Shown: positions 10,300 through 59,385 of the stretch, in pieces | Layout of the letters: every line of letters begins with the position of its first letter | Numbering within the stretch: position 1 is the first letter of the stretch | Assembly: GCA_029204225.1 (NCBI GenBank) | Contig: CM055108.1 | Location: 24,993,803 to 25,057,802, forward strand | Origin: Diphasiastrum complanatum | Taxonomy: Eukaryota; Streptophyta; Lycopodiopsida; Lycopodiales; Lycopodiaceae | DNA: 64,000 nt | Direction: 5' to 3' | Position numbers and translations under genes: made by a program | Notes under the pieces: generated by a model | Database searches by the model: none | The model's input: only the letters and a program-made list of their open reading frames with translations | Told to the model about the DNA's origin: nothing

Positions 10300-10787
10300 G
10301 CTAATTGTATAGACCAAAATGCCACATAAAGGCATTTTGAATGTATAGGAGGTTAAAGCTCAATAATCTATAAAAGCAATAATTGCAAACTAAAACCGAA
10401 TATACAATGCATGAGAGATGGCTGTCCCAGTCAGGGTCCATCAGCCCGGTATAGTACATCATGGTGTCCATCAGCCTGGAAGAAATAATGTAGGGTATGC
10501 TGTGAAGGTAGCACTGGATGTGCTGTAGACCTCTGTCTCCTGGTGGACTGTCAATGTCGTCTCTGCTGCTGTGGCACTCTGGACTGTGGCTTGCTGGCTC
10601 TCTTTGGGCGTCAACACTGTTGCTACCGATGTATGGAAGCATTCGGAATCTCAGCCTCTCCATCTGATTCAGTACCCTGGGATACCTTGGATCTCTGTCT
10701 TCGACGGGATATGCACTCATTGATGCTCAGCTGAATCAAGAAATGTCTATCAATTTCTAGTCTCCTCCTCCTCAAGTCCGACATCTC

Positions 10788-12209
10788 TCAGATCATCAGT
10801 GCGACACTAGGGTCCTCATAGGATATCAAGGTGGAAAGTGTGCCTGGGTGCTCCCTGAACAAACAATAGTACTTCCCCCGAATCTCATAATACGTTGGAC
10901 ATCTGAAGAGGAAATGTGACTCGTCCTGTAACTCATGCATATCACACATGCTACAAAGCCGAGCCTCTCGTGGGGTGCCGCTATATCTGCCGGTCTCAAT
11001 GGCCAGCTGGTGTGAGGAAACCCGAAACTGACCCATCACTATCTGCAGTTTGTGTGATATACTCCTTAGCTATTAATTAGGTACTATGGGGCATCCAGCT
11101 GGATCAAGGGATAAAAAGTGCATGCGATAGAAATCACTCTAGGTCCCCAGTGGACCCTACCAGGTGCTTTGAAGATACAATTTGTACAAGTGACCCCTGA
11201 TATACTGGTGGGTGCCCGCAGGTAGATCAATAATATGAATACCCAAGGTGGAGAGAAGACGACAGACCTGAGAATACCATGAGAAGTGGTGTCCTGAGTG
11301 CAAACTCCTGGAGGAAGACAGAGCAGCAACAACATAGTGTGTACCCTCGACTTGAAGATCATCCAACCGCTGTATAAATATGACAATATGAAATAGGGCC
11401 TCAATCTGAATGGGGGGGACCGCATACTCCACCAATATAATCTGATGCAGCATGGAGGGCTTAGATTGTATTATCCGAGAGAGCATATGAATCTGGAGGC
11501 GGGAGATGTGTGTCCAATCAGTAGTTGTCAGACCCGTACTCCATGTCTCGGCTGCCTACATAGCTGAGGGCACAACCATAGTGTCAAAGAGTCGGCACTT
11601 ACTGGTTGCATCTCTAATGTGAGCTGAAGCATAATCTCTCTAGATCTACAAGTGAGGCATAGCCTTTCTGTACCCAAGAAATAACTACATGTCTCATGCT
11701 GAAGGTGGGACTCGAGAATACGACCCCCAGGTACGTGTAGAAGTCAACAACCTCAAGTGGGTGACCATCCCATAGAAGCTCCTGTCGCATCATGAAGGAC
11801 TTGAAGGTGTTAAACACCATAACCTTAATCTTGGCCACATTCACTGACAGACCCCACCATGTACAAAAGGAGAAAAGAGCATCCAAATGCTGCTGCAAAC
11901 CCTCACTCGTCCATGAAAGCAGAACCACATCATCAGCATACAAGAGGATAGCAATAATGAGGTCGCCCAGTGTACAACCCTCCCCTCCATCACTCCGTAT
12001 AACATGCTCCAACTCATCAATGTAGAGACCAAAAAGTGTACATGAGAGTGGGCAGCCTGTATCCGCCCATCCATAGGGTCACAACCGACCCACTCCCATG
12101 CACTAGAGCTATCGTGCCTGATCAAGCCTCCTGCGATAATTGGCGTCCCATACCACCAGCCATCGCCCTTGGCTCTCCCTAGCACACATCGCCTGGCCTG
12201 GAGATACAT
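10788..12209 (-). pseudogene. LINE-B ORF2, reverse transcriptase to C-terminal finger
   Basis: The minus frames share blocks with LINE-A ORF2: YIDELEHVI, YADDVVLL, VMVFNTFKSFM, TYLGVVFSSPTFSMRH, SSHQLAIETGRY and the CX2C...HX4C finger. Several frameshifts occur, for example near 12010 and 11500-11600. Everything N-terminal to the GLYIDEL block is missing on this side of the 12.2-13.6 kb insertion. Confidence 0.85.
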
Positions 12210-12214
12210 CCTAG

Positions 12215-12859
12215 CTAATGCACGTGCTCTCCATCCACCAACTCCCGGGTAGACTGAGTGAATGGCAAAAGGGAAACCCCACCACTATATAGGCATAGCA
12301 TAGTGGGTCCCATCAAGCACGGTGCTGTTGGCGACACGTGACCACCTAGGATGGTGACGCGTGGCACCAAAACATGTTGATAACACCAAACCTGTGTCAT
12401 GCCCCTTGAGAGGCCGTCACTGAAGGGCGTACTGTTATGGTACATAACATTCCCTCCCCCATAAAACTTCCTTCTATGGGAGAAAACTAGGGAATCTAAG
12501 TCGTAAATCGTCTTTGTTCTCCCAGGTGTCCGAATCAGATGTTCAAAAATCAAACGATTTCTCAGCTGATGATGTCGGGTATCCATGATCCTCTCCGATT
12601 CATGGGGTATAAAGGCAGTCAAATCCTCCAATAACACTAGATCATCTGTTGGAATCAGGTTATCCTTTCCACCAAGTCGTTCCTTTAAACGACTAACATG
12701 GAATACAGGGTGAACCTTGGTTCCAACAGGGAGTTCTAGTCGATACGCAGTCCTACCAATCTTGTTAACAACCTTGAAAGGACCGCTATAACGTGGAGAT
12801 AACTTCGGACATTTCGCCGTTCGAAGTGTCTTAGAGTCCTTTGGGATTCTAAGATACAC
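12215..12859 (-). pseudogene. Ty3/gypsy integrase C-terminal fragment plus PPT and partial LTR
   Basis: The minus frame contains SPRYSGPFKVVNKIGRTAY and LPVGTKVHPVFHVSRLK, the GPF/Y module and linker of Ty3 integrases. After it come a purine run GGGGGAGGGAA (about 12450-12460) and TGTTATGTACC, a classic PPT plus LTR start. Within the LTR part, CCTATATAGTGG (about 12285) is a likely TATA box. The fragment sits inside LINE-B and lacks the rest of pol. Confidence 0.8.
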
Positions 12860-13610
12860 CCAATCATTTCAGTATGAGTGAAAACGGGCGATTGACGCTA
12901 GCGTGGGAGTCCTTGCAGGCGTAAAGGAGTGTAGTGCAGGCCTAAACCACGCTGCTGGTAGATGCTCCACGCCCAAACCCTAAAAAACATGGAATTAGGG
13001 CATGGAAATTGAAATTTGTGATACGGACGTAGACGGGCGGAACGGAGGTCAGAGGAGTCTCTGCAAGCATGTGGAAATGCATTCTAGGCTCAAACATCAC
13101 CTGAATTGGTTCATTTTGTGAAAACGGCAAAAAAAAACAAGCATTTGGAATGTGGTGTTCAAATCTCGCCTGGCGTGCCGTAACGGCTGAAACTGATGCT
13201 GTAGGAATCACCGTGGGCATGAAGTAAGGTGGTCTAGAGGCAAACTACGCTCGATTTGGTTGCCTACAGCTCAATGTCAACACTTGCAAAAAATCAAGCC
13301 TACACTTACCAAAAATCGAAAACTGATCGTTTCGCTCTCCACGAAGCTCAGATCCCCTTGGCACCGTGCACACTACCTCCGTATCGCCGAGTAGATGCCT
13401 GCCGATTATGCACACGCCTTGATTGGACACCTGTAGCTCAAAATAAAAAAATTTACCTCCTCCACAGCTGGCGCGATTCTGGCCGTGAAGAGGAGCAATT
13501 TTTTTTTTTATAAACTGTTTTTTTTTAATCACGTTTTTGGGAGGAGAAACGCGTTTCTCAGAAACGCAGTTTCCAAAACGTGTCCTCCAGAAACGCGTTT
13601 TTGGGCATCT
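12860..13610. other. unassigned insert in LINE-B with GAAACGCG hairpins
   Basis: No protein similarity was recognised. The right end (13530-13610) is dense in GAAACGCGTTTC-type inverted repeats, including a perfect 16-bp palindrome GAGAAACGCGTTTCTC at 13544-13559. Related GAGAAACGCG and GTTTCTGAGAAAC pieces occur at 50943-51830, so this may be one end of a MITE-like element. Confidence 0.4.
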
Positions 13611-13619
13611 ATGATCCAA

Positions 13620-14422
13620 ATATAGCGAGCCTGCTCGTCAGTGTATAGTAGCTCAACCCAAGGCTGGAGGGAGTCTCAGAATAAGTAGGCAACACCACCC
13701 GAACCGCGACTAGTCAGTGCCCTCGTCGTCCCTCGAGATGTAGAAAACAATCAAAAGCCCTCAATGAAAGGAAGTCCATGTGTCTCTGTAAGCATAAGGA
13801 TATCAGCTGTAGTGCAAAGAGCTCTAAAATCTCTTACTGTAGCTGAGGAGCGGATACCACTGCAGTTCCATAAGCTCAACCGCAATGCTTTTGCGAGGGC
13901 CCTCGAACTGCTCCTAAGTCCGGGGGCCCCTACTCCCTATTTCTCAGCTTTCTTAGGATCAATGTACCAAGCCTACCATCTTGGTAGACCACCCTTCTGC
14001 CCAATGCTTTGGCTTTGCTAAGAACCTTTCTCCTTTCCGCAACTTGCACTGGTGTGAGATCATCATCCATAAAGATAAGGGTACCTCTCGGCTTAGCCCG
14101 TAGCTTAAGGGCTATTGACGCTCTTCCAAACTCGTGAACCGTACAATAAGTGTAGGGGAAAAAGAGAGGGGAGCTTGATAGGGGGCAGGAGAGCCGAGGA
14201 GAGAGGAAACGGGAGCCGTCAGAGCCGAAGAAGAAGAAGATAGAGGAAAGGGAGCTAGGGGGGCAGGTGGCTGCCTGCTGGACAGGCAGCACTTCGGCCT
14301 GCTTGTCAGCCAGTGCGGCTGCATGCTGGGGCAGAGCGCCTGCCTCAGCGGGCAGCCGCTGCCACAGCGGGTAGCCAAGGGGAGCCGGGGGTGGTGAGCA
14401 TCGGCGGCTTTGCAGCAGCGCA

Positions 14423-14424
<2 letters not shown>
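13620..14424 (-). pseudogene. LINE-B ORF1 and 5' end of ORF2
   Basis: The first minus frame, from near 14424, is rich in Pro, Cys and Arg. It ends with an L1-ORF1-like C terminus (LKLRAKPRGTLIFMDDD, then AERRKVLSKAKALGRRVVY; stop at about 13930). ORF2 begins almost at once with WNCSGIRSS, the same start as other LINEs here, and runs to ARYIWI near 13620, where homology is cut. Confidence 0.75.
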
Positions 14425-14484
<60 letters not shown>

Positions 14485-14510
14485 AAGAAAGAAGAAAGAA
14501 AGAAAGCTTT
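14425..14510 (+). repeat. (GA)n / GAAA tract between LINE-A 3' end and LINE-B 5' end
   Basis: About 28 GA units (14425-14481), then AAGAAAG repeats. On the LINE strand this is the (TC)n that follows AATAAAGCTTTC of LINE-A and directly precedes LINE-B. Confidence 0.95.
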
Positions 14511-15023
14511 ATTAATGTCTTTTCCATGCCAAAAGGCATATAAGACTAGTAAATGTACCTGTCAAGTATGTGGTAACCATAGGAGCGTATGAAATGTCTC
14601 CAAAACAGTAACAAAAGTAGCAAATCTAGAGCTAAAGCTATAAACTGAAATAGATGTGATGCTACAAGAAACATGTGGGAGCATGTATATTGCTAAAAGT
14701 CATGCGTGAGGCATGACGCCATCATCTAGTCCTGTCCTGCTGATGCTGATGCTATAGAAGGATGTAATACGGCCTGCGGCATGAAGGGCCACTGGTGGTC
14801 TCTGACGTCGTCTGGGAGGATGAAGAGGTCTCCTCGTGATAGGTCGAGTAGCTCGTGCTGCAACATGGGTATGTGTGGGACGCTGTCTTTGGTCTCTGTG
14901 GGCAAGTAGGTCATCATCATCATCATTGTCACTGTCATCAAATCGTCCTCTCCTCCCGGAGAAGAAAGAAGTGATCTGAGGTTGAGAAACCTGACTCTGC
15001 TGGGCTGTCTGATACAAATCTTG

Positions 15024-17748
15024 TCATAGTATACACATCTCTCGTATCATGAGTGCCGCGCATCGGGAATCCTCATAAGCTATGAGCGATCGTAAGGTGA
15101 CAGGTGTGTCTCGGAACAAACAGTGGTATCTCCCTCTGATCTCATGATATACCGGGCACCTAAAGAGAAAGTGCTCCTCTGACTCCACCTCCTCTAAAGA
15201 GCATAACTGGCAAATCCGCTCCTCTCTCGGGGTATCCTGGAATCTACCAGTCTCAATAGCCAACTGATGTGATGATACGCGGAGCTGTCCCAATGTAAAT
15301 CTGAGGCAATGTGATAGTCTCGAGTCCAAATAATGTGGTAAGACCAGGAACCCTGCTATGTCAAGCTCAATAAAATGAGTCCAGTAGTAGCCAGGTTTAA
15401 TCCCAAGCTGTCGCCCCCAAGTACGGTCGGGAGGAAATGGGATGCCTGAGAGAACCACGATAGTCGATAACCCTGGTCCTGAAGAAAGTGTGAGGAAACA
15501 AGTGCTGTCTGTGTATATCTCATATCCTCATCGGGCAGAGCCTGGATTCTCTGAATGTATGCGATAAGCTGGAACGCGGCATATATTTGAATGGGTGGAA
15601 TGGCAAACTCTGCAAGAAGGATCTCATGTGGAACTGAGGGCTTCGCTCGAATCATACAAGCTAACGTGGTGGTCTGCAATCGTGAAATGCTGGCCCAATG
15701 TGCTGAAGGGAGGCCGGTACACCATGTCTCTGCTGCATATAAGGTTGTGGGGGTGACAATAGTATCAAAGAGTCTACACTTACTGCGAGCATCTCGGATG
15801 AGCTTCCTGAAGCAAAACCGCTCAAGCTGAACAAGAGAGGAATGCCCCTTCCCAAGTCGGGTGGTGGCAGCTTGCCGCATGCTGAAGGTAGGACCAGAAA
15901 AGAGTATCCCCAAATAGGTATAAGAGGAAACTACCTCTAAGGCCTGTCCATCTAGGATGAGCTCCTGGCGCTGCATGAAGGCTCAAGAAGTGTTGAAGAC
16001 CATAACCTTGGTCTTCACAGTATTCACCCCCAACCCCCATCTGGTACAAAATCCCTGTAAACAATCCAGCTGCCTATGCAAACCCTCTCTGGTCGGGGAT
16101 ACTAGTACTACATCATCCGCATAAAGGAGAATAGCGATCAGAATGGTGCCAAGTCTACAACCACCCCCGCCATACTGTGAGATGACTCGCTCTAACTCAT
16201 CAATATACAATCCAAAGAGAACCGGTGAAAGAGAGCACCCCTGTTTCACCCCAATGGTGCTCCAAATGTGATCAGATAGGCTACTGCTATGTCGGAAACA
16301 TCCCAAGACCTTCTCATAAAGAGCCATCACTGCTAGAACAATATCTGTGGAGAAACCAAGGTCACGAAGTCTCTGAATGAGCAGGGAGTGTGGTACAGAA
16401 TCGAAGGCTTTCCTGAAATCCACAAAACAGCAGTAAACCCTCTCTTTCCTGTACTTAGCTTCCTCAATCAAGGCTCGAAGTGTAAAAATATGGTCAGCGG
16501 TAGAATAATGAGATCGGAAACCTGCCTGCCCCAATGCATGTAATCCCCGAGCGTCCGCCTTTGAACTCACTGCAGACTGGAGTATGGTACCATAGAGCTT
16601 CGTGAGAACATGTCCGATCATGATGGTGCGGTAATTACCAGGAATCATGGAATCACCATTTTTATGAATAGGGTGGATGATGTTGGTGCACCAGGATGAG
16701 GGGAAACCAGAGACAACGGCGGGATTGAGGAGACTGGCTAGTGTGGGAGCAAGGAGGTCGGAAGCATGGGTTAGGAGTTCAGATTCAAGGTCTTCGATAT
16801 CTCTTGTTTTATGGGACTTCATTCTCTTGATGGCCGTAAGTACCATGTCAGATGTGAAGAAGGTGAACTCAGAGGGGCGTGGGGAGATAGAGATGGGTGC
16901 GTCAGTGGCTATGTTATATAGGTTGGTAGCGTATTCGGTCCATATGCGGAGGTCATCCAGGAGGGGTGGTGGAGCACGAGGGATAAACTCACGCCAAAAG
17001 GCGCCTGAAGAGGAAATGAAGAGAAGATCAACAAGACTCGTTCCTTCGGAGTCATCATAGATACACTTTTTTCGGCGGAGTGTGCGATGGTAAGAGCGCC
17101 TGGCGGAGTGGAGGAGATGAGGATCGTGAGTACGGGCATGGTGACAAGTTGATGAAGAGAGCGACATTCAGCATCATACCACAGGGGGTGTGGGGGTCGT
17201 ATCGATGAGGAACGGGTGCCTCTGCTTTTATGGGGTTTAGATGGAAAAGCAAGGGAAGCAGCGGTATGAAGAGAAGTGCTAAGAAAGGCAGCTTGAGTCT
17301 CGACTGTACTATCGTGAGGGAAGAAATGGAGCAAGGAGGTTAGGAACTCCTGGTAGATTGGTGTATAGAGAGAACTGAATGTATACCTGGTGGGTGCCCG
17401 TGTAAACAGGGGGTGTGAGGCTGGCTGGGGAGGTGGGAGGCGGCCGATAGCGAAGGAGAGAAAGGAATGATCAGAGAGAGTGGTGGGAGATACATGAAAA
17501 TCAGAGATGAGAGGTATGGAAGATGGTGATCCCATGAGATAATCCACAACACTATGTCCACCACTGTGAGGGTGACAAGTATAACTGCCGGATTTTGGCC
17601 AACAAGTTAGGCCATTGTAAATGGCTAACTCATGGGCCTCTCCAAACTGCAATAAATGCTCATCGTAAGGGGTAGTAGGTCCCAAGCTGTCCTCTGAAAT
17701 CCTGGTAACTCCCATGTCATCGCTGTCAAGGGCATGAACGCGGAGCTG
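15024..17748 (-). pseudogene. LINE-A ORF2, distal part (endonuclease end, reverse transcriptase, CCHC)
   Basis: It continues the endonuclease from the far side of Copia-2 (ELAIYNGLTCWP, HSVVDYLMGSP, LSDHSFLSF). It then has the reverse transcriptase blocks GNYRTIMIGHVLTKLYG, LGQAGFRSHYST, FVDFRKAFDSVPHSLL, GVKQGCSLSPVLFGLYIDEL and YADDVVLV. The C-terminal finger is CQLCSLEEVESEEHFLFRC (about 15150-15210). A nonsense TGA follows VMVFNTS, where relatives read Arg. Two frameshifts disrupt it. Confidence 0.9.
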
Positions 17749-17753
17749 GTCGG

Positions 17754-18095
17754 TGATAATTTGCAAGACCCAGCTATGGAGTATCTTAACTCAAATACTA
17801 GATCAACTATGAAAGCTTGAGAAACTTGGCTATGGAAAACATCACACACAAGGAGAATTGCATAAGCACCTCACAAACTCAAAAGTCTGAAGAAGAAATG
17901 AATTGCTAGAGAGAGAGAGGAGGGCGTGGGTCCTCCAAATCCCTTGTGAGGCAAGCACCTCCTTTACGTGCATGGAAAGTCTAGGTGTCAACCATAGGAG
18001 TGAGCTACTTGCCAAGTGGGCCACTTGCACTATGAGTTATGTACAACTTAACTAATGCTTAGCCAAAGGGGTAAAATAGGCATTACTCTTCAACA
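17754..18095 (-). repeat. Copia-2 3' LTR (342 bp)
   Basis: It matches 22182-22576 almost base for base but lacks a 53-bp block after CCACTTGCACT. Confidence 0.93.
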
Positions 18096-18110
18096 CCCCC
18101 CCTTAATGGC
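18096..18110 (-). other. Copia-2 polypurine tract
   Basis: On the minus strand TTAAGGGGGGGTG lies directly before the 3' LTR. It comes within 20 bp of the pol stop codon, so the usual spacer is missing. Confidence 0.85.
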
Positions 18111-18114
18111 AATT

Positions 18115-21100
18115 TTATTCATCACCTGCCCAATCAGAATCTGAATAACCCTCCAGCTGAAGGTCCCCGTCATCTGTGTATCCAATCCCATAAGTCACTG
18201 TCCCTCTCACATATCGTAGGATCCGCTTGGCTGCCTTCCAATGTGCTTCGGTAGGCTTACTCATGAATTGACTTGCAATTCCAACCGCATAAGCAATATC
18301 TGGCCTGGTGGTAGTAAGGTAAATCAGGCTGCCCACTAACTGACGATAGCATCTCATCTGCAAATGCTGAACCATCATCTTTTGATGGCTTGTTGCTTGC
18401 ATCCATGGGTGTGCTGATTGGTTTGCTTTCTTGCATGTTAAACCTCTTCAATAATTTCTGTGCATACTTTGCATGTGAGATAAAAAGACAACGCTTCCCT
18501 TTCCAGACTTCAACTCCTAGCAATAGTGTAGCAAACCCAAATCTTTCATCTCAAACTCACTAGAAAGATTCTTCTTAACACAAGCAATAAGCTTCTTATT
18601 GCTTCCCGTGATGAGTAGATCATCCACATAGAGCACAACAACCACAAAGTCTTCTCCTTCCCTGAAGACATAAAGATTGCAATCAGACTTACTCTTCTCA
18701 AACCCTTGCCTTGCAAAGTACTCTTCAATTCGGCTATACCAAGCCCTTGGCGCCTGTTTGAGCCCATACAAGGCTTTCCTAAGCCTGCAAACCAGATTCT
18801 GCTTGCCTGTTATTTCAAATCCCTGCGGTTGTTCCATGTAAACCTCCTCCTGTAGGTGCCCATTCAGAAAGGCACTCTTGACATCCATTTGATGGACATC
18901 CCAATCAAAATATGAGGCTATAGCCAAAACGGTCCTGATAGATGTCATCTTAGCAACAGGTGTGAATGTCTCATCATAGTCTAGCCCCTCCTGCTGAGCA
19001 TAGCCTTTCGCCACCAACCTTGCCTTGTACTTGTCCACTGTTCCATTGGCATGAAACTTGGTCTTATAGACCCACTTGCAACCTATTGGTCTGGCAATGT
19101 ATTGAGCTCCCATGTGTCATTCTTGATGGAGTCGTACTCCTCCTGCATGGCATGTTGCCATACCTTTTCCTTCACGGCTTCGTGAAAGAACTGTGGCTCA
19201 TCTGCATTCAGAATAGTGGACATAAGAGCAAAGTTAGTCTCTTGTCTCTCATGAGACCTAAGAGATCTTCTGACACCCTGTTCACTGCTCTCTCCTTCTT
19301 CCATCATTTGACCTTCTTTGATTGTTTCCCAATACCACCTAGGTAGCTTCTTCCTAGCAGTAGGTGATGTGGATGGTGACCACGTATCCCAAGTTACTGT
19401 CTTAGTCTTCCGTTTGTCCCCAACTTCGGCTTCTGGTACTTGGCCAAAAAGAGGTCTCGAACTAGTAGGTTCGATTTCCTGTTGTTGCTCCTGCACTTGA
19501 GGCTCACAGGACTCTTGACTAGGATCCTCATCCGTGGAATCAATCAAGGGTATGAACTCAGTAGTTCCTTCCTTCTCCTGCTCCTGTATCTTGGGTGAAT
19601 GCTCTTCATCAAAGATGACATCTTGACTTAGGATCTTCTTCCTGTTTTCGAGATCATATAGCACATAAGCTTTCTCATCTTCACTATACCCAAGAAAGAC
19701 ACACTTTACGGATTTTGTATCAAGTTTCTTCCGCAAGTCCTTTGGTATATGTGCATATGCTATACACCCAAATACTCGAAGGCTGCCCACTTTGGGCTTG
19801 TTGCCACTAAAAACTGCTTTGGTTGGACTTCTATTCAATAGAAAAACAGCAGTTGCTACCGCTTCCGCCCAAAAAGAATTTGGCAACCCCTTTGCCTTGA
19901 GCATGCTCCTCGCACACTCAACTATAGACCTGTTTTTCCGCTCAGCCACGCCGTTCTGCTGCGGTGTATGTGGAGCAGTAAACTGTCTCTTTATCCCACA
20001 TGCTTTACAAAGATCTTTGAACTCATCAGAAATATACTCACCACCCTTATCTGACCTGAGAGTCTTTAACCTCTTCCCTGTGTGGTTTTCCACCATAGCT
20101 TTCCATTGTTTGAAGTATTTGAACGCTTCAAATTTCAGTTTCAGAAAATAGACCCATACCTTCCGTGCGAAATCATCTACGAAGGTCATGAGATAGTATG
20201 CCCCCCCTGCTGATTTGACCTGCGTGGGACCGCATAAATCTGAATGCACAAGTTCAAGAATGCCCTTGGCCCTGGTAGCTTTCTCCTTTGGAAACTTTTT
20301 CCTCTGTTGCTTCCCTAATGCACAAGCCTCACATGTATCTGAAGAAGACTTAATGCTAGGAAGATCTACTACCATTTTGTGCCTGTTCAAAACTTGCAAA
20401 CTTTTATAACTCAAATGACCATATCTCTCGTGCCAAAGCTTGTCCCGATTAGTATCTCTTGCAGACAAGGCCTCTTGGCTAGGAATGGTTGTGAAAAGCT
20501 TGTAAAGACCTCCTTCTTGCATTCCCTTGGCTACCACCTTGAAGTTTGATCTTTGTCTTTTACCAAACATGTAGAATCATCAAACTCTACCACCATGTTC
20601 TGTTTGGTAATGGCAGCTAGCAAGTTCTTAGCCAACCCTGGTACATGCAACACACTTTTAATTTCCTTCACCTCGCCTGATGACAGCTGTACTGCAACTG
20701 TGCCTTTGCCCCTCACCATACGTGTAGAATTATCTCCAAGGCAAACATGCTGACCATCTTCTGTCTCCTCATAGGTGTTGAACCAATCTCTATGAGGTGT
20801 CATGTGCTTTGAGGCTCTAGAATCAATGTACCATCCACCAAATGTGGATTCAGATGATAGGGCTGCGGTGAATAGCTCAAGCACACCAGATTGCTCCTCC
20901 TCTGCAACTTTGTCAACAAAGTGACCCTGCTGGTTCTTTCCCTTCTTCTGATCACTTTGCTTCTTCCTGCATTCAAAGGCAAAATGCCCATACTTACCAC
21001 AATAGTTGCAGTTGCCCTTCCTCTTGGGTGTAGATGAGGAATTGGTGCTTGACTCCTCTCCAACCTGTAACTTGGACACCTGCTGCTCCAAGCTTTGCTT

Positions 21101-21715
21101 TGAGTTCTTCTTTTTGCCTTTACCTTTCTTCTGAAAGTTTTGCTTCTTCTTAGAAGCAAAAGCAAGCTCTGGATTATCTTCCCTTTCAGAAAGATTCTTC
21201 CTTCTACCACATAACTCCCCAAAGGTTGGGAGTTTCTCCCTAGCAGAAAGGGACATCACATAGTCTTGATAGTTGAATGACAAGCTGTTCAAGACTATGG
21301 GGACAATACTCCTGTCACTTACTTTCTCTCCAACTGAAGCAAGCTGATCCATTAGGTCCTTGACCTTTGTAATATGATCACCAATTGTTGCACCTGCTTC
21401 CATCTTGAGAGTATGTAACCCGTTTTGCAAATACACCAACTTGGCTGTCCAAGCATCAGCTGCATCCCTTGCATTGCAAATGTGAGGAATAATATTGTCC
21501 TTGACAGAAAGATTGATTATCCTATGAGCTTTCTGTCTCCTGTTCATGTAGTCCTTCAATTCAGGATCAGATGTTGGTATAGGTTCTGTACCTGTCATCA
21601 CCTCCCAGCAATTCTTGTCCATCAAGATATTAGCCATCTTGAACTTCCACACTCTGTAGTTTGTGCCATCTAGTTTGCTAGATTCACCCAGCAAACTCTC
21701 CCCAAGACTAGCCAT
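18115..21715 (-). pseudogene. Copia-2 gag-pol polyprotein, frameshifted
   Basis: The gag start is probably 21715 (MASLGESLLGES). Then come gag (LDGTNYRVWKFKMANILMD), zinc knuckle CNYCGKYGHFAFEC (about 20970-21010), protease active site DSRAS where DSGA/DTGA is usual, integrase finger (WHERYGHLS ... CEACALGK), intact catalytic motifs HSDLCGP, LRSDKGGEY and NGVAERKN, and reverse transcriptase with FDWDVHQMDVKSAFLNG and LYVDDLLITG. RNase H stops right after [10 protein letters not shown], about 100 residues short. Frameshifts lie near 20550, 19100, 18520 and 18350. The Gly-to-Arg change at the protease active site would by itself be expected to abolish cleavage. Confidence 0.9.
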
Positions 21716-22166
21716 GCTAAAATCTGTGGTCAAACAAAAGCTCAACCTGAAAAAGATCAGAAAAGAAACAACTTCCAACAAGGGTTTGACCACAAACTAG
21801 GGTATGTAGCCACTTCAAGGCAACCCTTTAGCTCTTGCTTTTGTCTTTGCCACTTGGTATGGCCTCACTAGCACAAGCACTAGGCCCCATTGGAACAGAA
21901 ACCAGAAGCCCCTACAGAAAGTGCGCCCTACTTTTGGGTAAGCTCCTCCAGAAAGACTCCCCAAAACTTAGCCAGATTTAGAAAGTTTTTGGTTCATCCC
22001 ACTCCCCTTGCCAATAGCTCTCCAACAGTGCAAGACTCCACCTGATCTGACACCTGTAGATCAAATGCTCCCTCTTTCAAGATTGAGGTGCTTGTAGAAG
22101 ATGAGAATCTTCTCAAGAATCTAAGCACTGAAGTTTCTCTCACTCACAGACCCACAGGCTAGACAA

Positions 22167-22181
22167 CCTGCTCTGATACCA
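22167..22181 (-). other. Copia-2 primer-binding site
   Basis: The minus strand reads TGGTATCAGAGCAGG directly after the 5' LTR, the initiator tRNA-Met type. Confidence 0.88.
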
Positions 22182-22576
22182 TGATAATTTGCAAGACCCA
22201 GCTATGGAGTATCTTAACTCAAATACTAGATCAACTATGAAAGCTTGAGAAACTTGGCTATGGAAAACATCACACACAAGGAGAATTGCATAAGCACCTC
22301 ACAAACTCAAAAGTCTGAAGAAGAAATGAATTGCTAGAGAGAGAGAGGAGGGCGTGGGTCCTCCAAATCCCTTGTGAGGCAAGCACCTCCTTTACGTGCA
22401 TGGAAAGTCTAGGTGTCAACCATAGGAGTGAGCTACTTGCCAAGTGGGCCACTTGCACTAATTTACTCAACTTACAAAAGGGGGTCTCATGCATTTAATT
22501 AAAACATGCCCCATGAGTTATGTACAACTTAACTAATGCTTAGCCAAAGGGCTAAAATAGGCATTACTCTTCAACA
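22182..22576 (-). repeat. Copia-2 5' LTR (395 bp)
   Basis: The complete LTR, TG...CA bounded, 5' in element orientation. It is followed by the second GTCGG target-site duplication. Confidence 0.93.
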
Positions 22577-22581
22577 GTCGG

Positions 22582-23090
22582 TGATGTCATAAAACTCTGA
22601 CTGTCGTGAAGAGGTTCGGGCATTAAAATCCCCAATGAGGAGAATATGCCCCCGCTCTGCGAATCTGATAATATCAGGCGATAAATCAAGGTAGGGTGAA
22701 CCTGTGCCCTCAGCAAAGGACGAAGACTTTGGAGCAAAAATAACATGCCGCCACAAAGAGGTCCCTGTCGAAACCAATATCCTGCCCTGCAATACGAATC
22801 CATATATACCGTGCATGCTCGTCGTGTCTGATGAACTCGATGCTCGGATGAAGAGACTCTCTGTATAAGCATGCAATACGTCTGGATCCACGACCTCTAG
22901 CTGATCTAGTCTCAAGTCTGTATACGGAATCCCATACGTATCCTGGAAAAATAGGTAATCCTCTCTCTTGACTCTCATGAGTCTCCTAAAGAGCAGTAAA
23001 TCTCTATCAGTGATGAAATCGATCAAGTCGCCAGCAATGGAAGATGAGTGTAAACCATCACAGTTCCATACTCCAATCCGGAGATGGTGT
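22582..23090 (-). pseudogene. LINE-A ORF2, N-terminal endonuclease
   Basis: It starts near 23090 with a WSMEL/LHSSSIAGDLIDF block equivalent to WNCNGFLSSSSAGDF of LINE-D. It carries the AP-endonuclease residues ILLIGDFNARTSSRQ before the Copia-2 junction. It is less well kept at the QDTYGIPYTDL region. Confidence 0.8.
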
Positions 23091-24357
23091 GGATGGGGCC
23101 CCGGGGCACTCCCGAACCCGGGGACCCCAAATCCCTAGCACTGGGAGCTGCTAGGTGCGCTGTCAAGAAAACACACTCGTCCATCTCAGTAAATGACTCG
23201 TCTGCCAGACTCACGGGCTGCCTGAAAGGCCTTACGCCTCTCCTCTACCTGGATATATGTGAGGTCATCGTCCATATAGATAGTGGTACCACGTAGCTTA
23301 GCTCTGCACCGCAAAGCATCTCGACGGCTCTCAAGGGAGGTGAAACGAATAATGAGTGTGGCTGCATCTCTAGTGGTCCTCCATGCGGTGTCCAACCCCT
23401 CTGTCCTGTGCCCGAGAGTGATGTCGGGAAAGTGTTTGGCTTCAGCCAATGCATCCTGTGTATCTAGAACTCCACGAACTCTAATATTGTGGGCTTTTTG
23501 GTCTCGAGATTTCTATTCCGAGATGGTGGCTGAGATAACCGAGGAGATGGGAGCGTTGGGTTTGGTGCCCTTTCTCAAAACTGATGCCCAAGAAAGGGCC
23601 TCTTTGTGTTGCTTCTCAATCTTGGTTTCTAGCTCCCGTAGCATGTTGGTGGTGGATTCCGAAGCTGCAGCCTGTTTGATCCCGATGGATTGTTCGAGTG
23701 AGGCAACCTTGGACTGCAATAACTTCTTCTCGTTGATCAAAGAAGTAACCGTTTCTTTCAGCTGTGAAATTTCATGCCGCAAAAACTGGAAATCTGCCTT
23801 GAATTGATCAATCTGACAAGATGAAAAAAGTTCAGTTGATTTAGAAGGCGTATACGGAATATTGGCTGTAAACTGTGGTGCCGGTAAGGAGGAAGAGTGA
23901 GCAATGGTCGGTGTGGGAAGAATAGGGTCAGAAGACGGAAGAAGAGCCGAATCAGGGGAGCAGCCATTAGAGAGGGGGGTGGGAGTTGTAGCAGGAGAGG
24001 GAGATGGGTCATCGAGGGGGTGAGGTGAAGTGGCAGCGAGGGGGGGGGGGCTGGAATGACTATGAGAGGAGGTGAGGGATCAGCGAGGGGGGGTGAGGGA
24101 TCAGCGAGGGGGTGAGGTGAGGGGGCAGCGAGAGGGGGGGTTGGAGTGGCAGCGAGAGGGGGTGAGGAGGGTGGATGGGTGGAGGGGTCAGCGAGGAGGG
24201 TGGGTGAGGGGGTGGCAGCTATAGGAGAGGGATCAGTGAGGGGGAGATCGGGGAGGTCAACGAGGGGGGGGTATGGAGCAACGAGGGGGGAAGGAGGAGG
24301 AGCAGCGAGGGGGGGAGGTGAATGGTGAGCGAGGAGGGTGAGTGAGGAGGTGACAGG
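23090..24357 (-). pseudogene. LINE-A ORF1
   Basis: The N-terminal third is a Pro-rich low-complexity region (24040-24350; units like PSPPLADPSPPL). A coiled coil follows (QLKETVTSLINEKKLLQSKV, about 23700-23770). The C-terminal half resembles L1 ORF1p RNA-binding modules (GLDTAWRTTRDAATLIIRF, LRGTTIYMDDDLTYIQVEER). The start codon lies in the inverted block at 25009-25011 (CAT on the + strand reads CCATGG in context). After mental re-inversion the frame continues exactly at AGG TCC CCT GTC. Confidence 0.75.
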
Positions 24358-24380
24358 GGACCTTGACTTATTTTGCCTAC

Positions 24381-24390
24381 ATTGGGGGCA
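24381..24390 (+). other. Gypsy-1 polypurine tract (inverted)
   Basis: ATTGGGGGCA directly precedes the LTR at about 24391. Its orientation is opposite to Gypsy-1 because of the microinversion. Confidence 0.7.
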
Positions 24391-24866
24391 ATGTTCTTTA
24401 TAGCCAGGGACTACAGGATACAGGCCTACTGGGCTACTCTGCATATATTCCGCAGGCCTCTTTACATTTGCTGTTGGTTATGTATATTTCTGGTTACGCA
24501 TTTTATATTAGTCATGTACAAGCCCCAGAGCCTTTTTATATGCTTATGACCCGCATTGGGTCCTTTTTTATGACATTGACTGGCCTTGGGCCCTTATTAT
24601 ATGGTTATATGTGGAGTGGGGGCCCGTAGGAGGGCGCACTATTTTCCCTCCACATTTTGCCTCCCTTTACTATTGAATTCCTATTTTAGGGTTCATTGGT
24701 ATGGTATTTATAGGGGCATTTGTACACTCATTTTTCAGATTATTGATTGGTATTGCTTGGGCTTTTCGTGGGAGAACCTATTGTCTTGTCTATTGCTTGT
24801 AGGGCTTTAGTCTATTGCTGTCTTTTATGCTTCATTGATTCAACACCTGAGATTTTGATCATAACT
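24391..24866 (+). repeat. Gypsy-1 3' LTR (inverted)
   Basis: From GGACTACAGGATACAGG onward it is the reverse complement of 30341-30786. It ends GATTTTGATCATAACT, followed by AAAGA (24867-24871), the same 5 bases that adjoin the other LTR (TCTTT at 30787-30791 on +). The first 20 bp differ from the 5' LTR. Confidence 0.85.
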
Positions 24867-24879
24867 AAAGACGTCAATA

Positions 24880-24920
<41 letters not shown>
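24867..24920 (+). repeat. LINE-H 3' tail and (CT)n (inverted)
   Basis: AAAGACGTCAATAAAGC followed by about 19 CT units. It matches the LINE 3' terminus AAAGACATTAATAAAGCTTTCTC seen at five other sites, and is the distal tail of LINE-H separated by Gypsy-1. Confidence 0.8.
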
Positions 24921-24923
<3 letters not shown>

Positions 24924-25044
24924 GGCTGCTCCTCCAGCTCCTCCAGCGATGGCTGCTGCCCTGTCCTAGGCCCTGCCCTTGCCCTGCCCTGGTCGGCCCT
25001 CTCTCAACACCATGGCCCCTCCTCCTCCTCGCGCCCCTGCTCGT
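24921..25044 (+). mobile_element. LINE-A 5' end (inverted)
   Basis: It follows (CT)n directly with GATGGCTGCTCCTCCAG and includes ACCATGGCCCCTCC (about 25007-25020), the probable ORF1 start. The frame joins ORF1 at 24357 when re-inverted. Confidence 0.75.
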
Positions 25045-25059
25045 AGGTCCTAAGAACCA

Positions 25060-30786: not shown

Positions 30787-31020
30787 TCTTTTCCATGCCA
30801 AAAGGCATATAAAACAAAATAGTAGATGTGAAGTATATGTTAGAAATGGAAGTGTATGAAACGTCTCCAAACAATAAAGAAAAAGATACATGAAGTATGA
30901 CTGCTAAGATCAAAATGAATCTATTGCAAGAATATCTGACTGCAAATATAGATGTAATGATAATGGTATGACATGCTATCATAAAATCGTACTGCTACTG
31001 AAGAAAGATGTAATGTGGAC
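30787..31020 (-). mobile_element. LINE-H 3' UTR fragment
   Basis: On the minus strand it ends with TATGCCTTTTGGCATGGAAAAGA, the LINE 3' hairpin, where Gypsy-1 begins. Upstream it shares the AGACGTTTCATAC and CTTTATTGTTTGGAG-type blocks of other LINE tails. It is 5'-truncated near 31020. Confidence 0.75.
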
Positions 31021-31661
31021 TAGTGTTGGAGGTAGGCCCACTACGTGCTGCTGATGTCATAGTTGTTTGTGAGATGTGTGGGTCCTCATGAGGTAGCTTT
31101 TGCTTAGTATAAATACCCGCTAGGGCTCTTCATTATTTAGTCATGAGTTTGGAATCTTGAGCTCTTTGTTGGGGAGGGGTAACAACATGCAGAAGCTGCC
31201 TAAGGTACTAAGACATTTATTAGTGTTATTAGCATCTCCTAAAAGCATACAATTAGTAATCCCAGCCAACTTCAGCTTGATTTTGTTTTTAACCTCATTC
31301 ATGCCCACATGTTGTCCACAACAAGAATTGAAGAATTGAATGGGTTCTTGGTTTCTAAACTTGGTCTGAAAGTAAACCATCTATGTCGCTTTGCTTTTGC
31401 TATATAGGGATTAAACTTGGTGCAACTTTCAATCTTCTGACCAATTTTTTTTGTTTAGAACGAGAGGTACTCATAACAGGAAGCACAACTCCTTGAGCAT
31501 ACTTAGAAGTTACTAGCATGCAGTCAATTATCATTTATTGATTTTTGGTAGTGACTTGTGATATGCATTGTAGCACGACTATGAGCTATGAATGTGCATT
31601 TCTTGATGGTTTTTGATTATAGAAGCCATAGCTTGTTCACAGCAATTGCATTCTATTGCAG
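31021..31661. other. end of intron 1
   Basis: No coding or repeat feature was recognised. The polypyrimidine and acceptor TTGCATTCTATTGCAG end at 31661. Confidence 0.6.
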
Positions 31662-38636: not shown

Positions 38637-38640
<4 letters not shown>

Positions 38641-39169
38641 TTTATTAATGTCTTTTCTGTGCCAAAAGGCATATAAGACAGATAAAAGTACATGTCAAGT
38701 ATGTGGTAACTGTGGGAGCGTATATAAATGTCTCCAAAGACTATGCATAAAAAAGAGCAACGTAACTAAATACTATAAACTTAAGCCAGTAAGTAGGAGC
38801 ATAGGAAAAGCTGATGTAGAGCATATCATCCTGCATTGCTGCTGAAAAAGGATGTGATACGAGCTGCAACATGAGATAGTGTTGGTCGTCACTGACCTCG
38901 TCTAGGAGGGCGGAAGATGAGCATGATAGGACGGGTAGTGCGAGTTGCGCCATGAATATGAGTGGTGCACTATCTCTGATATCTGTGAGGGAGTGCATCG
39001 TTGTCATCGTCTAACTCTATATCTCGGCGTGGCTGTCTCCTAGAGAAGAAGGAGGTAATCTGAGCCTGAGTGCTGGGATGTGTCTGATGATGAGCTGACT
39101 GGTACATATTATGTCGTAGCAGGAACATCTCTCGTATCATAAGTGCAACATAGTGAGGGTCCTCATATG

Positions 39170-41188: not shown

Positions 41189-41236
41189 ATTGGTAGGGGA
41201 TCTCGGGTAGCTTCTATATCCGGGGGCCCCTAGTTC

Positions 41237-42145
41237 CTATTGTGGAAGGTCGAAAAATCTCGGTTTCCCGTCAATAAAAACAACCCTTTGCCCTTTCTCT
41301 TTCGCTTCAAGGATAATCTTTTTTCTTGCCAACCATTGAGTATTTGTTAAGTCATCATCCATATAAATGAAAGTACCTTTAAGCTTTGCCCTAAGCCGAA
41401 GGGCAGCATTGCGTTGTGAAAGCGAGCGGAACTTGATAAACAAAACATTGTCATCAAATTTACTGCGCCAAGCAGTATCAAAACCGTCAGCCACATGAGA
41501 TAACTTGGAAATGAGCAAATCCGTAGCTTCTTCCAACGGTTTTCCACCATTGGCAATGCCTCTTACTCTAATGTTAAAGGCTTTTTTGGCCCTTCTGGCT
41601 TGTTCACCCAAAACTGTCTCCAAATCGTTTTCCTTCGGAAAAGATGAAATCTGAGAGTGATTACCTTGCTTAAGGATCGATGTCGTTTCTTCAACCTGTT
41701 TTGCGAGTGATGAGAGTTTGCTGCCCATATCATCCGGTTTGAAGAGTGCTGCCCACGTTTTCGTCTCCTCGACTTGTTTCTCCAAGCTATTGATCTTGTT
41801 GGAAGTCTCCTCCAAGGCACTTTTTTCTGCAATTCGTTGCTTAAGATATATATTTTCTTGCTCAAGCTGCTCCACACGTTCCGTGACACCAAAAAGATCC
41901 TTAGCTAACTTGCTATTTTCAGCTTCAAAGAGGTGTAGTTGTTTCTTAAGTCCAAGAATTTCTTGCCGGATAAAACTAAGATCATAAGCAAAAAGACTTT
42001 CGGTAGGTTTGGAAGGAGTGTAGTCAATGGCAGCCATGTTGATAGTTTCTGTCACCGAAGACGGCTCCTCCATCACTACCGGTGATGGGGGGGTGTCCAA
42101 CAGGGAGGGGGGTGTAAGAACACCCTCCTTTTTCTTAGGTGCCAT
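41237..42145 (-). CDS. LINE-D ORF1 (L1 ORF1p-like, intact frame)
   Basis: 302 codons with MAPKKKEGVL as start; the upstream Leu-Ser run is microsatellite read-through and not protein. A Pro/Ser-rich N terminus is followed by a long coiled coil (about residues 55-170; LGLKKQLHLFEAENSKLAKD, VEQLEQENIYLKQRIAE). An RRM-like block FNIRVRGIANG comes next, then a C-terminal domain with FIYMDDDLTNTQWLARKKI. This is the coiled-coil, RRM, CTD layout of L1 ORF1p, a trimeric RNA chaperone. It is the only uninterrupted LINE reading frame of full length in the window. Confidence 0.85.
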   Translation of the reverse strand: MAPKKKEGVLTPPSLLDTPPSPVVMEEPSSVTETINMAAIDYTPSKPTESLFAYDLSFIRQEILGLKKQLHLFEAENSKLAKDLFGVTERVEQLEQENIYLKQRIAEKSALEETSNKINSLEKQVEETKTWAALFKPDDMGSKLSSLAKQVEETTSILKQGNHSQISSFPKENDLETVLGEQARRAKKAFNIRVRGIANGGKPLEEATDLLISKLSHVADGFDTAWRSKFDDNVLFIKFRSLSQRNAALRLRAKLKGTFIYMDDDLTNTQWLARKKIILEAKEKGQRVVFIDGKPRFFDLPQ

Positions 42146-42167
42146 AGGAGGCGGTAAGCAGATGGAG

Positions 42168-42171
<4 letters not shown>

Positions 42172-42217
<46 letters not shown>
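42172..42217 (+). repeat. (GA)n between LINE-D 5' end and LINE-E 3' end
   Basis: About 22 GA units. On the minus strand LINE-E ends GCATGGAAAAGAC directly in (TC)n, without AATAAAGC, and LINE-D begins after it. Confidence 0.95.
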
Positions 42218-42219
<2 letters not shown>

Positions 42220-42700
42220 CTTTTCCATGCATATAAGACTAGTAAAAATACATGTCAAGTATGTGGTAACAATGGGAGCGTATGAAACGTCTTCGAAACA
42301 GTAAGAAAGAAACATCTAATATGAACTGAAATAAGTGCAGTAAGATATGTAGGAGCATAGATGCAACTGGATGTCTACAATAAATGATAACACTATCATC
42401 ATGTCTTGTTGATGCTGATGCTATAAAAAGATGTGATGCGAGTTGCAGCATGGGGGAGCTCTAATAGCTGCTTATGTCGTCTAGGAATGTCAGAAGTGTG
42501 TCTCCTCATAAGAGCTCTAACAACTTGGGCAACAACATGGCTATGAATGGTGCACTGTCTTTGATCTCTGTAAACATGTATGCCGTCCTCATCATCATGC
42601 TTTGGGTCGCGTCGTGACCTTCTCCTAGAGAAGAAAGAAGGAATCAAAGGCTGAGAAATAATATGCAGAGATCTTTGACATAGATCCCACCGCAATAAGC
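42218..42700 (-). mobile_element. LINE-E 3' UTR fragment
   Basis: About 480 bp of LINE 3' UTR, with blocks shared with LINE-A and LINE-D (AGACGTTTCATACGCTCCC, TAGCATCAGCATCAACA). The 3' hairpin is collapsed to ATGCATGG. Confidence 0.8.
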
Positions 42701-42759
42701 ATCAGCGACACAAAGCATCATATAGAGTGACAAAGGTTCAAGATCGGGAAAATCCTTTT

Positions 42760-43085
42760 TTTCAAATGTGTTTTGACTACAGATTGATGAATAGTTGGCC
42801 ATATGATATTAGAGTGGGAGCCCTCTTGTAGGAGGGTGCACTATTTATCCCTTTTGACTAGGTTTACTAACATTATCTTATCCTCTAGAAGCCTTCATGA
42901 AGGTTCCATTTTAGGGCGTCCTTGTGGGTATAAGTAGGACCTATTGTCATTCATTTCATAGCTAATGATATTGATCTCTCTTTAGTCTTCTTAATCATTC
43001 TCTTTGCTGCTTTCTAGGGTTAATTCTTGCTTATATGTTGCTTTCTTAGCTTAGCGATTGATCTTTTGTAAATCTGTTTGTAGTT
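42760..43085 (+). repeat. Gypsy-2 5' LTR (partial)
   Basis: Shares GGCCATATGATATTA, GGGTATAAGTAGGACCTATTG and CTAGGGTTAATTCTTGCTTAT with 48239-48591. It ends TCTGTTTGTAGTT at a PBS. The start is truncated or diverged, and it carries an extra block at about 42811-42880. Confidence 0.75.
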
Positions 43086-57846: not shown

Positions 57847-57941
<95 letters not shown>

Positions 57942-57963
57942 AGAAGAAGAAGAAGAAGAAGAA
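57847..57963 (+). repeat. (GA)n plus (GAA)n tract
   Basis: About 46 GA units (57847-57938) followed by about eight GAA units. On the minus strand it forms the tail of the LINE unit at 57964-58960, with TTC next to the element and TC distal. Confidence 0.95.
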
Positions 57964-58958
57964 GCTGTATTAACGTCTTTTCATGCCCTAAGGCACATAA
58001 GACAAAAAAAAAAATAGTACATCCAAGTATGATGGAAATAAGACGGGACAGTACCGTCAGCCAGATAAGAAAACTAAGCTTTAGCTAACCACTATGCAAT
58101 AGTCTAGGAATATATGGTCTGAAAATGCAACCATTTACAAGGTCAACTGGATACTAAACTCAAACTCAAACTCAACTCTATTCTAACTCCAACTTTAAAA
58201 TCATCTATTTCGTTTCCGCTAAATGTTTAGCTTCAACAAAATGGATTTTACCGTCTCTGTAAATGAGATGTTTTCCTGTGTCTCTCGCTTTTTGCAAAGC
58301 CTCTTTTCTTTCCATCACTTGTACTTAAGTGAGGTCTTTGTCCAGGAAAATCTTGGTATCTTTTAGTTTGTGTCTTTGACGCAGTATCTCCTGTCGTGAT
58401 TCCAACGAGGTGAAGCGCAGGACAAGGGTATTAGCGTCTTTCTTGGTACGCCAGGCTGAGTCCAAACCTTTGTCGTGATGATGGAGAGTAGCTTTCAAAA
58501 CATTTTTGGCCTCAGTAAAAGCATCATGAGAATCCGGGATGCCTCTGACATGGACATTGAGAGCCTTTTGCTCGCGCAACCTCCTCTCAGTAAACATAGC
58601 AGAAATGAAAGAAACTGGAGCATTCGCCGATTTTCCTGGACCTTTGAGAATATCTGCCCAAGATTGGATAGATGTAAGATGCTGCTCCACTTTACTTTTG
58701 AGGTCCTCAATCGTAGTTGAAGTAGCTACTTGGGAGGGTACTGCACATTTGATGGCTGTAATTTCCTGCTTCAGTCTGCGGATCCTTCCCTTTCTTGTTC
58801 TTGGCCATATTTCCCTTAGCAAAAGGATCTGGGCAGTTGAAACGTGGACTTTCAGGGCATTGACAGCCAGGCAGCAGTGGTGGATCAGCAGTGAGGGATA
58901 AAGTGCGATGGAGCAGCACTGATGGAGCTAGAGGGCCGCTGGAGCAGGGCGCACCATC

Positions 58959-58960
<2 letters not shown>
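57964..58960 (-). mobile_element. LINE derivative with ORF1 only, bounded by (TC)n
   Basis: About 1 kb between two (GA)n tracts. On the minus strand it begins GCGATGGTGCGCCCTG, carries ORF1, and then goes straight to a short 3' UTR ending TGCCTTAGGGCATGAAAAGACG and TTAATACAGC. No ORF2 sequence lies between. It looks like a non-autonomous form that would need ORF2 protein from a full element. Confidence 0.8.
58200..58840 (-). pseudogene. ORF1 of the short LINE derivative
   Basis: Minus frame: KGRIRRLKQEITAIKCAVPS (coiled coil), IQSWADILKGPGKSANAPVS, ALNVHVRGIPDSHDAFTEAK (RRM-like), LDSAWRTKKDANTLVLRFTS, KIFLDKDLT then a stop, and VQVMERKEALQKARDTGK after it. Compare YMDDDLTNTQ of LINE-D. The single in-frame stop at DKDLT is the main break seen in it. 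Confidence 0.82.

Positions 58961-59015
<55 letters not shown>
58961..59015 (+). repeat. (GA)n between short LINE derivative and LINE tail unit
   Basis: About 27 GA units. CTCTATTAATGTCTTTTCC, a LINE 3' end, follows. Confidence 0.95.
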
Positions 59016-59017
<2 letters not shown>

Positions 59018-59335
59018 CTATTAATGTCTTTTCCATGCCAAAAGGCATATAAGACTAATGAAGTACATGTTAAGTATGTGGTAACCATGGGAGCGCATAA
59101 AACGTCTCCAAAACTGTAATAAAGAAAACATCTAGTACAAGCTAAAATAGACATGTAAGCGAGAGTGTGTGTGCATAATAATCATATGTATCCATGTCAA
59201 GATGTCAAGACTGTGCTGATGCTGTAGAAAGATGTAATGCAAGCCGCAACATGAGAAAGCGCTAGAGCCTGCTGGCATCGTCTATGAGCATGAGCATGTG
59301 TAGTAGTACGTCTCTGTGTAGGATGTCTGGTGATC

Positions 59336-59337
<2 letters not shown>
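59016..59337 (-). mobile_element. LINE 3'-UTR unit between two (TC)n tracts (about 320 bp)
   Basis: On the minus strand it starts CAGGATCACCAGACATCC directly after (TC)n and ends ATGCCTTTTGGCATGGAAAAG, ACATTAATAGAG, (TC)n. Same architecture as 38247-38554 but from a different subfamily. Confidence 0.85.

Positions 59338-59385
<48 letters not shown>
59338..59385 (+). repeat. (GA)n next to the exon 7 acceptor
   Basis: About 24 GA units ending 30 bp before the acceptor AG (59414-59415). Confidence 0.95.

Follow-up and report, generated by a model that had tools for sequence, protein, structure and literature searches.

A clubmoss LINE family with TC-rich tails that probably inserts into (TC)n microsatellites

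LINE arrays at the locus

The window analysed here, 64,000 nt at positions 24,993,803-25,057,802 of contig CM055108.1 within the 1.74-Gb assembly of the clubmoss Diphasiastrum complanatum (GCA_029204225.1), carries copies of a family of long interspersed nuclear elements (LINEs) joined to one another by (TC)n microsatellites. Perfect TC/GA tracts of 16 bp or more number nine in the window, and eight of them adjoin LINE ends. Seven of the eight lie directly 3' of a LINE 3' end, and six of those seven lead into another LINE. Read on the minus strand, the copies terminate in TATATGCCTTTTGGCATGGAAAAGACATTAATAAAGCTT or a variant of it and run straight into TTTC, TTC or TC repeats. This gives the chains B-(TC)n-A-(TC)n-H, with the B/A junction inside an inverted segment at 24358-25050, C-(TC)n-D-(TC)n-T1-(TC)n-E, and (TC)n-T2-(TC)n-F-(TC)n (Table 1).

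An initial annotation of this stretch had described minus-strand LINE 3' ends running into (TC)n at eight sites, with the next LINE directly across the tract, in three same-orientation arrays. Its coordinates were right and all eight sites do adjoin LINE ends, but at 24883 it is the plus strand that reads (CT)n; this tract is ruled out as a minus-strand site, its orientation being explained by the inversion, and the tract at 59338 does not follow a 3' end but forms the outer 5' flank of T2. The next LINE lies directly across six of the seven tailing tracts; the tail of F is followed by gypsy sequence instead. The three arrays stand, H-A-B once the 693-bp inversion is undone, although the 3' end of H has no (TC)n.

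Table 1. Features of the three LINE arrays, in positions of the window
Feature	Position	Strand	Remarks
LINE H, different subfamily	10300..14424	-	interrupted at ~12.1-13.6 kb; 3' end without (TC)n
Tail of A, (TTTC)n(TC)n	14425..14503	-	5' end of H directly behind
LINE A (ORF1, endonuclease, RT)	14504..24357	-	RVT_1 E=1.5e-28; 5' end in inverted segment
Inverted segment, 693 bp	24358..25050		edges GGACCT/AGGTCC (6-bp inverted repeats)
(CT)19, tail of B and 5' flank of A	24883..24920	+	within inverted segment
LINE B, 3' part	30787..31120	-	3' end interrupted by gypsy; remainder 24867-24882 on plus strand
LINE E, 5'-truncated ORF2 fragment	37850..38226	-	3' end broken or lost
Tail of T1 and 5' flank of E	38227..38254	-	
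Tail unit T1, 5'-truncated LINE 3' UTR	38255..38554	-	94.3% identical to A
(TC)41, tail of D and 5' flank of T1	38555..38636	-	
LINE D	38637..42171	-	26-nt leader; ORF1 41240-42145; ORF2 with endonuclease and part of RT
(TC)n, tail of C and 5' flank of D	42172..42217	-	
LINE C, 3' part	42218..42760	-	LTR-like sequence at 5' side
Tail of F, (CTT)n(CT)n	57847..57964	-	gypsy sequence behind
ORF1 unit F	57965..58960	-	ORF1 and LINE 3' end, without ORF2
(TC)n, tail of T2 and 5' flank of F	58961..59015	-	
Tail unit T2, 5'-truncated	59016..59337	-	
(TC)24, outer 5' flank of T2	59338..59385	-	non-LINE sequence on its 5' side
ORF, open reading frame; RT, reverse transcriptase; UTR, untranslated region; LTR, long terminal repeat.

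Sense (TC)n follows the 3' ends of seven units (B, A, D, T1, C, T2 and F), which is seven of the eight readable 3' ends in the window, H being the exception. It also stands directly ahead of the 5' ends of seven units (A, H, D and F, and the 5'-truncated T1, T2 and E), seven of the nine readable 5' boundaries. As six tracts are at once the tail of one unit and the 5' flank of the next, and were counted on both sides, the 5' and 3' counts are not independent. Broken copies at ~55.6-56.8 kb and ~61.9-63.5 kb, which have no readable ends, were left out of the counts. The 3' ends themselves are far above chance level, a 27-base 3' motif with up to three mismatches matching four places in the window against a mean of 0.00 in 100 shuffles.

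The inverted segment contains a gypsy 3' LTR, the last 16 nt of the 3' end of B, (CT)19, and the 5' leader and ORF1 start of LINE A. Reversing it restores the order B 3' end, (CT)19, A 5' end. It also rejoins the internal end of the gypsy element in B with its 3' LTR and opens ORF1 of A (MAPPPPRAPARRSPVT...), whose frame then runs from MAPPPPRAPARRS on into the stretch downstream of the breakpoint. The gypsy insertion that splits the 3' end of B has AAAGA on either side, as read from the sequence. ORF1 of LINE A lies at ~23917-23162 and upstream, and a copia element is inserted at ~17755-22576. LINE D has an internal deletion that took the end of the RT and much of the C-terminal part. Unit F had been read as a 3'-truncated fragment; it has a LINE 3' end and tail of its own, and that reading falls.

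Proteins and lineage of the family

The family has an ORF1 and an ORF2 with an apurinic/apyrimidinic endonuclease-like (APE-type) endonuclease (PF03372, 1.4e-14 in D) and an RT (PF00078, 1.5e-28 in A). With these enzymes, no LTRs, 5'-truncated copies and 3' tails, it is a family of non-LTR retrotransposons, that is, of LINEs. Towards the end of ORF2 there is a C-x2-C-x9-H-x4-C stretch.

ORF1 of D has 302 residues and is 97% identical (99% in a second alignment) to the annotated Diphasiastrum complanatum protein O6H91_02G138100. No Pfam family scored above the cut-off for a near-identical slice of the D ORF1 frame. Its structure model, of low confidence (mean pLDDT, the predicted local distance difference test, 65.9), shows a long helix and, after it, two further parts, one RRM-like and one C-terminal. 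Searched with this model, Foldseek returned human L1 ORF1p (trimers) as its top four matches, at a best E of 3.3e-5 and template-modelling (TM) scores of 0.2-0.4. The predicted fold may thus resemble that of L1 ORF1p, a likeness that is suggestive only.

The RT of A matched the solved structure of R2 (9nl2, 1.9e-24) better than that of human L1 (8sxt, 3e-12), in a comparison of scores only. The family should therefore not be called L1 without a tree; the annotation's 'L1-like' is not established, and neither is membership of Tx1. At E of at most 1e-3 the RT had 593 relatives; the 120 matches listed included proteins at up to 53% identity and others, from Adiantum nelumboides, at 49-56% over part of the query. 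Ser-Leu and similar runs, which would be signs of translated (TC)n, were found in none of 147 proteins of relatives. A genome scan with PF00078 scored 150 among 47,709 candidates, and the eight loci inspected were gypsy-like by eye.

3' ends of the family

In most of the 3' ends that we folded, the 3' UTR closes with a two-part hairpin, GUCUU...UAUGCC-UUUU-GGCAUG...AAGAC, about 10 nt ahead of a pyrimidine tail that is often (TTTC)n, (TC)n or both. We folded 17 terminal stretches, several from motif-selected loci. Twelve formed both the outer stem (GUCUU/AAGAC or shorter) and the inner stem (UAUGCC/GGCAUG or nearly so), with a loop of four bases. Two formed the inner stem only, one as GUGCC/GGCAC and the other, B, with its outer part cut away by the gypsy element. 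The 3' end of H forms a different hairpin, and C and the end upstream of sampled copy p17 do not fold in this way. The hairpin is kept across subfamilies, with GUGCC/GGCAC in place of AUGCC/GGCAU in one of them; as the stretches were partly selected by motif, its conservation is supportive only.

Across the genome a 29-base 3' motif matched 7,018 places (3,435 + 3,583) with at most two mismatches, and the same pattern read backwards matched none. Exact GGAAAAGACATTAAT sites number 4,963 (2,444 + 2,519), and in 4,125 of them (2,021 + 2,104; 83%) six bases are followed by 14 pyrimidines. The 100 motif places tabulated all lie on one contig (C1), spread between 1.2 and 59.7 Mb. We took as a sample the first 30 zero-mismatch copies listed, all on C1, with flanks of 1.5 kb on each side for all 30 (L009-L038) and of 7.5 kb upstream for the first 20 (L039-L058). 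In 26 of the 30 copies, all but p00, p01, p06 and p12, perfect TC over 10 bp or more begins no further than 60 nt from the motif. Under a looser rule of three TC units, 28 copies have tails, 18-148 nt long when measured from the motif, and only p00 and p01 fail. By the genome-wide and the sampled count alike, the 3' junction lies in a microsatellite, and the earlier proposal that a TC-rich pyrimidine tail takes the place of poly(A) gains support.

The tail is probably copied in part from the RNA, since a (TTTC)n start recurs in many copies. The remainder may be target sequence or the result of slippage.

Neighbouring copies

Another LINE begins within 15 bp of the tail in seven of the 28 tailed sample copies (p03, p08, p09, p10, p11, p20 and p26), each with at least two library matches. 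All seven neighbours lie on the same strand as the tailed copy and none on the opposite strand (two-sided P 0.016). Copies p04, p22, p24 and p25 had one library match only, that of p04 being an overlapping neighbour window, and were not counted as arrays.

Could such arrays have arisen by tandem duplication, or by unequal exchange between (TC)n tracts? Recombination is possible between long tracts of this kind, and the inversion at 24.4-25.0 kb shows that the locus has undergone local rearrangement. The neighbours in the window, however, are only 68-91% alike (A-H 68%, C-D 78.5%, B-A 84.4%) and differ in their truncation points, and the nearest relative of T1, at 94.3%, is A, which lies in another array. 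This divergence fits independent insertions, and we reject duplication as very improbable.

5' ends of sampled copies

The 5' boundaries of the sampled copies were called from coverage by other copies, protein matches and tract positions. Ten of the 30 copies (p02, p04, p05, p06, p11, p14, p16, p17, p19 and p24) have, at the 5' boundary as we read it, a tract of sense TC 12 bp or longer. In five of these (p06, p11, p16, p17 and p19) sequence homologous to other copies begins directly behind the tract, and we refer to these five as the strict count. No 5' boundary at (GA)n was seen among the 30. For a position taken at random upstream, the chance of lying no more than 12 bp 3' of such a tract is 0.0021 per copy, which gives P = 5e-20 for ten of 30 and P = 6e-9 for the strict five.

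By the annotation's own standard, non-(TC)n 5' flanks in most genomic copies would refute targeting. In six copies (p21, p23, p25, p26, p28 and p29) there is no tract within 1.5 kb and LINE homology extends to or near the end of the flank; excluding these leaves 24 readable 5' sides. Ten of 24 is no majority. Ten of 30 is a strong enrichment over the 0.2% expected by chance, and on the sense strand only.

These figures bear on the possibility that the family merely has a TC-rich tail and inserts without sequence preference, its tails expanding later and neighbours meeting by chance. Tails are indeed very frequent, their common (TTTC)n start suggests an RNA-copied part, and 14 of the 24 readable 5' sides are not TC. 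Insertion without preference would nevertheless have to account for 5' ends that meet sense (TC)n far more often than chance, by the full or the strict count, with none at (GA)n, and for array neighbours that share one orientation 7:0. It would also have to account for p06, p16, p17 and p19, which are truncated and TC-flanked and have no LINE protein match within 4 kb upstream. We regard it as unlikely.

The tract ahead of p06 allows a closer look at a target. The sequence upstream of it, with a coverage of 1.0, is a repeat of ~280 bp, here called repeat X, found in two of the flanks (L041 ~2317-2640 and L045 ~5400-5716) with (TC)n at the same position in both. In L045 the truncated p06 follows right after the tract, and in L041 no LINE lies directly behind it. 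The comparison shows, in this one case, that a tract can exist there without a LINE. The right flanks of repeat X differ between the two loci, as expected were X itself TC-tailed, and X may be a further family of such retroposons. In p17 the upstream end weakly resembles that of a LINE (AATAAAAC).

A further explanation is template jumping, in which the units of an array were joined in one event as the RT, on reaching the 5' end of one RNA, moved on to the (UC)n tail of another. R2-type RTs are known to jump in this way, and the truncated units that start directly at another unit's tail are what it would produce. It leaves unexplained the 5' (TC)n of p06, p16, p17 and p19, which have no LINE match upstream, that of T2, and the (TC)n of repeat X common to two loci. 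As a general account of the arrays we think it quite improbable.

Proposed insertion mechanism

We favour, with a probability of roughly 0.8, the reading that this is a large and abundant clubmoss LINE family, TC-tailed and inserting into (TC)n by target-primed insertion. The RT would bind the 3' hairpin of the LINE RNA. At a TC tract in the genome the endonuclease would nick one strand, (GA)n, and the 3' end so freed would pair with the RNA's (UC)n tail and prime the cDNA. The LINE 5' end, often truncated, would join what remains of the tract. The new copy would then be flanked by (TC)n and offer a same-strand target to the next insertion, so that arrays would build up. If reverse transcription is primed in this way, by the nicked (GA)n strand on the (UC)n RNA tail, then the tail, the 5' flank, the strand bias and the arrays are all explained at once. 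Insertion into (TC)n, as the annotation had proposed, is supported by the 5' enrichment, the sense-strand bias and the single orientation of neighbours, while (TC)n at the 5' end is not universal.

Several observations weigh against this reading. In the window there is no (TC)n at the 5' boundary of B (~31.1 kb) or C (~42.76 kb), nor near the 3' end of H (~10.3 kb). In the sample, 14 of the 24 readable 5' sides have no (TC)n at the LINE boundary (p00, p01, p03, p07, p08, p09, p10, p12, p13, p15, p18, p20, p22 and p27); these copies show internal deletions, other repeats, and unclear or plainly non-TC flanks, and not all of them are explained. Five of the ten TC-flanked copies (p02, p04, p05, p14 and p24) have little or no coverage behind the tract, their 5' end being set by the ORF1-like sequence that follows. 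The sample consists of the first 30 perfect-motif copies listed and comes from one contig, the array junctions could have arisen partly by template jumping, and confidence in the ORF1 model is low (mean pLDDT 65.9). As several of the non-TC copies are deleted, interrupted or unclear, the count of ten in 24 neither proves nor refutes insertion into (TC)n.

The (TC)n ahead of a copy may do more than mark its address. ORF1 begins ~9 nt from the tract in p14, 26 nt in D, 91 nt in A and 119 nt in p02, and p02 (~4.5 kb) and p14 (~5.2 kb) are the two longest TC-to-TC copies read. With the tract only ~9-119 nt upstream of ORF1, we speculate that it may act as promoter or initiator. More tentatively, and with less confidence than we have in the insertion reading, (TC)n might be tail, address and promoter at once. 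A LINE of this kind would make its own landing pads and start sites, each insertion would prepare the ground for more, and a large share of the long (TC)n microsatellites in this clubmoss genome would be of LINE origin. Internally deleted and ORF1-only units would share the address.

Relation to known elements

Kibi and Koshi, reportedly described by Kojima and Fujiwara in 2004, are (TC)n-targeted LINEs of the animal Tx1 clade. The family described here is like them in being a LINE with a (TC)n target, as we propose, and in its APE-type endonuclease, the type given for Tx1-clade elements in the relevant passage of PMC4640811. It differs in its clubmoss host, its Tx1 membership is not established, and its RT matches the solved R2 better than L1. 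Togen elements, according to the same paper (PMC4640811), are (TG)n-specific fish LINEs treated with NeSL-related families, in which the endonuclease is restriction-like. They share with our family a dinucleotide microsatellite as target, as proposed here, whereas the clubmoss family has an APE-type endonuclease, (TC)n and a plant host.

The Zepp and ZeppL elements of green algae are described in clusters (PMC8226300, PMC3446292), built by nested insertion according to the part of PMC8226300 that deals with them. Nested insertion into existing copies, giving arrays rich in 5'-truncated 3' ends, is the point of likeness. The difference lies in distribution: in Coccomyxa, as described in those passages, there is one cluster per chromosome, at presumed centromeres, whereas here there are 7,018 motif sites and TC-rich tails. 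In the L1 clade of flowering plants, the relevant section of PMC3747384 distinguishes one lineage, whose 3' stem-loop is conserved and taken to reflect stringent RNA recognition, from other lineages with poly(A) and relaxed recognition. The clubmoss family shares a 3' stem-loop with the former, but has TC-rich tails and an ORF1 whose predicted fold may resemble that of L1 ORF1p.

We found no (TC)n-targeted LINE in plants in a literature search that did not cover Repbase. Such LINEs are known in animals, and by this search the clubmoss lineage seems to be new. If our reading is right, a vascular plant has a well-populated family of microsatellite-targeted LINEs, perhaps recently active, as ORF1 of D is 97% identical to another annotated protein. 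The family would provide a natural setting in which to test how a simple repeat is located by a LINE with an APE-type endonuclease, whether (TC)n can be both target and promoter, and in what way retrotransposons give rise to microsatellites and expand the introns and genomes of lycophytes.

Other observations

Unit F and two sampled copies, p24 (L033) and p20 (L029), both judged by eye, are short ORF1-only or ORF1-bearing units with the family 3' end and a TC tail. HAL1 elements are ORF1-only derivatives of mammalian L1. F is like them in having ORF1 and the family 3' end without ORF2, and differs in belonging to another family and in its TC tail. It is possible that short ORF1 units such as F form a HAL1-like non-autonomous class.

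Some RT relatives have, in a LINE ORF2, a stretch that looks PHD-finger-like by eye (P0005) or a precomputed PHD domain, PF00628 (P0053, P0062, P0095 and P0096).

For the ninth tract of the window, at 5736-5828, neither a self-comparison of the window nor tblastn gave a match with the LINE family. It is a (TC)46 behind a TATAAAAG...AATAAAGC-like stretch, downstream of a copia LTR. An 18-bp tandem repeat occupies 63345-63675, at the end of a broken plus-strand LINE copy.

On the plus strand, the stretch 36087-37061 (with an open reading frame ending ...VLALVHEGEVTWDLKWQPVGDIPG...) and that at ~59416-59488 (IPLTVEWSTSKPHDMLLAGCHDGT, with splice-like edges) are likely two exons of one host gene. 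Their product may resemble a plant TFIIIC subunit with WD repeats (GTF3C2-like). The array of E, D, T1 and C and that of T2 and F would then sit in introns of this gene, one presumably ending at ~59415, and would run antisense to it.

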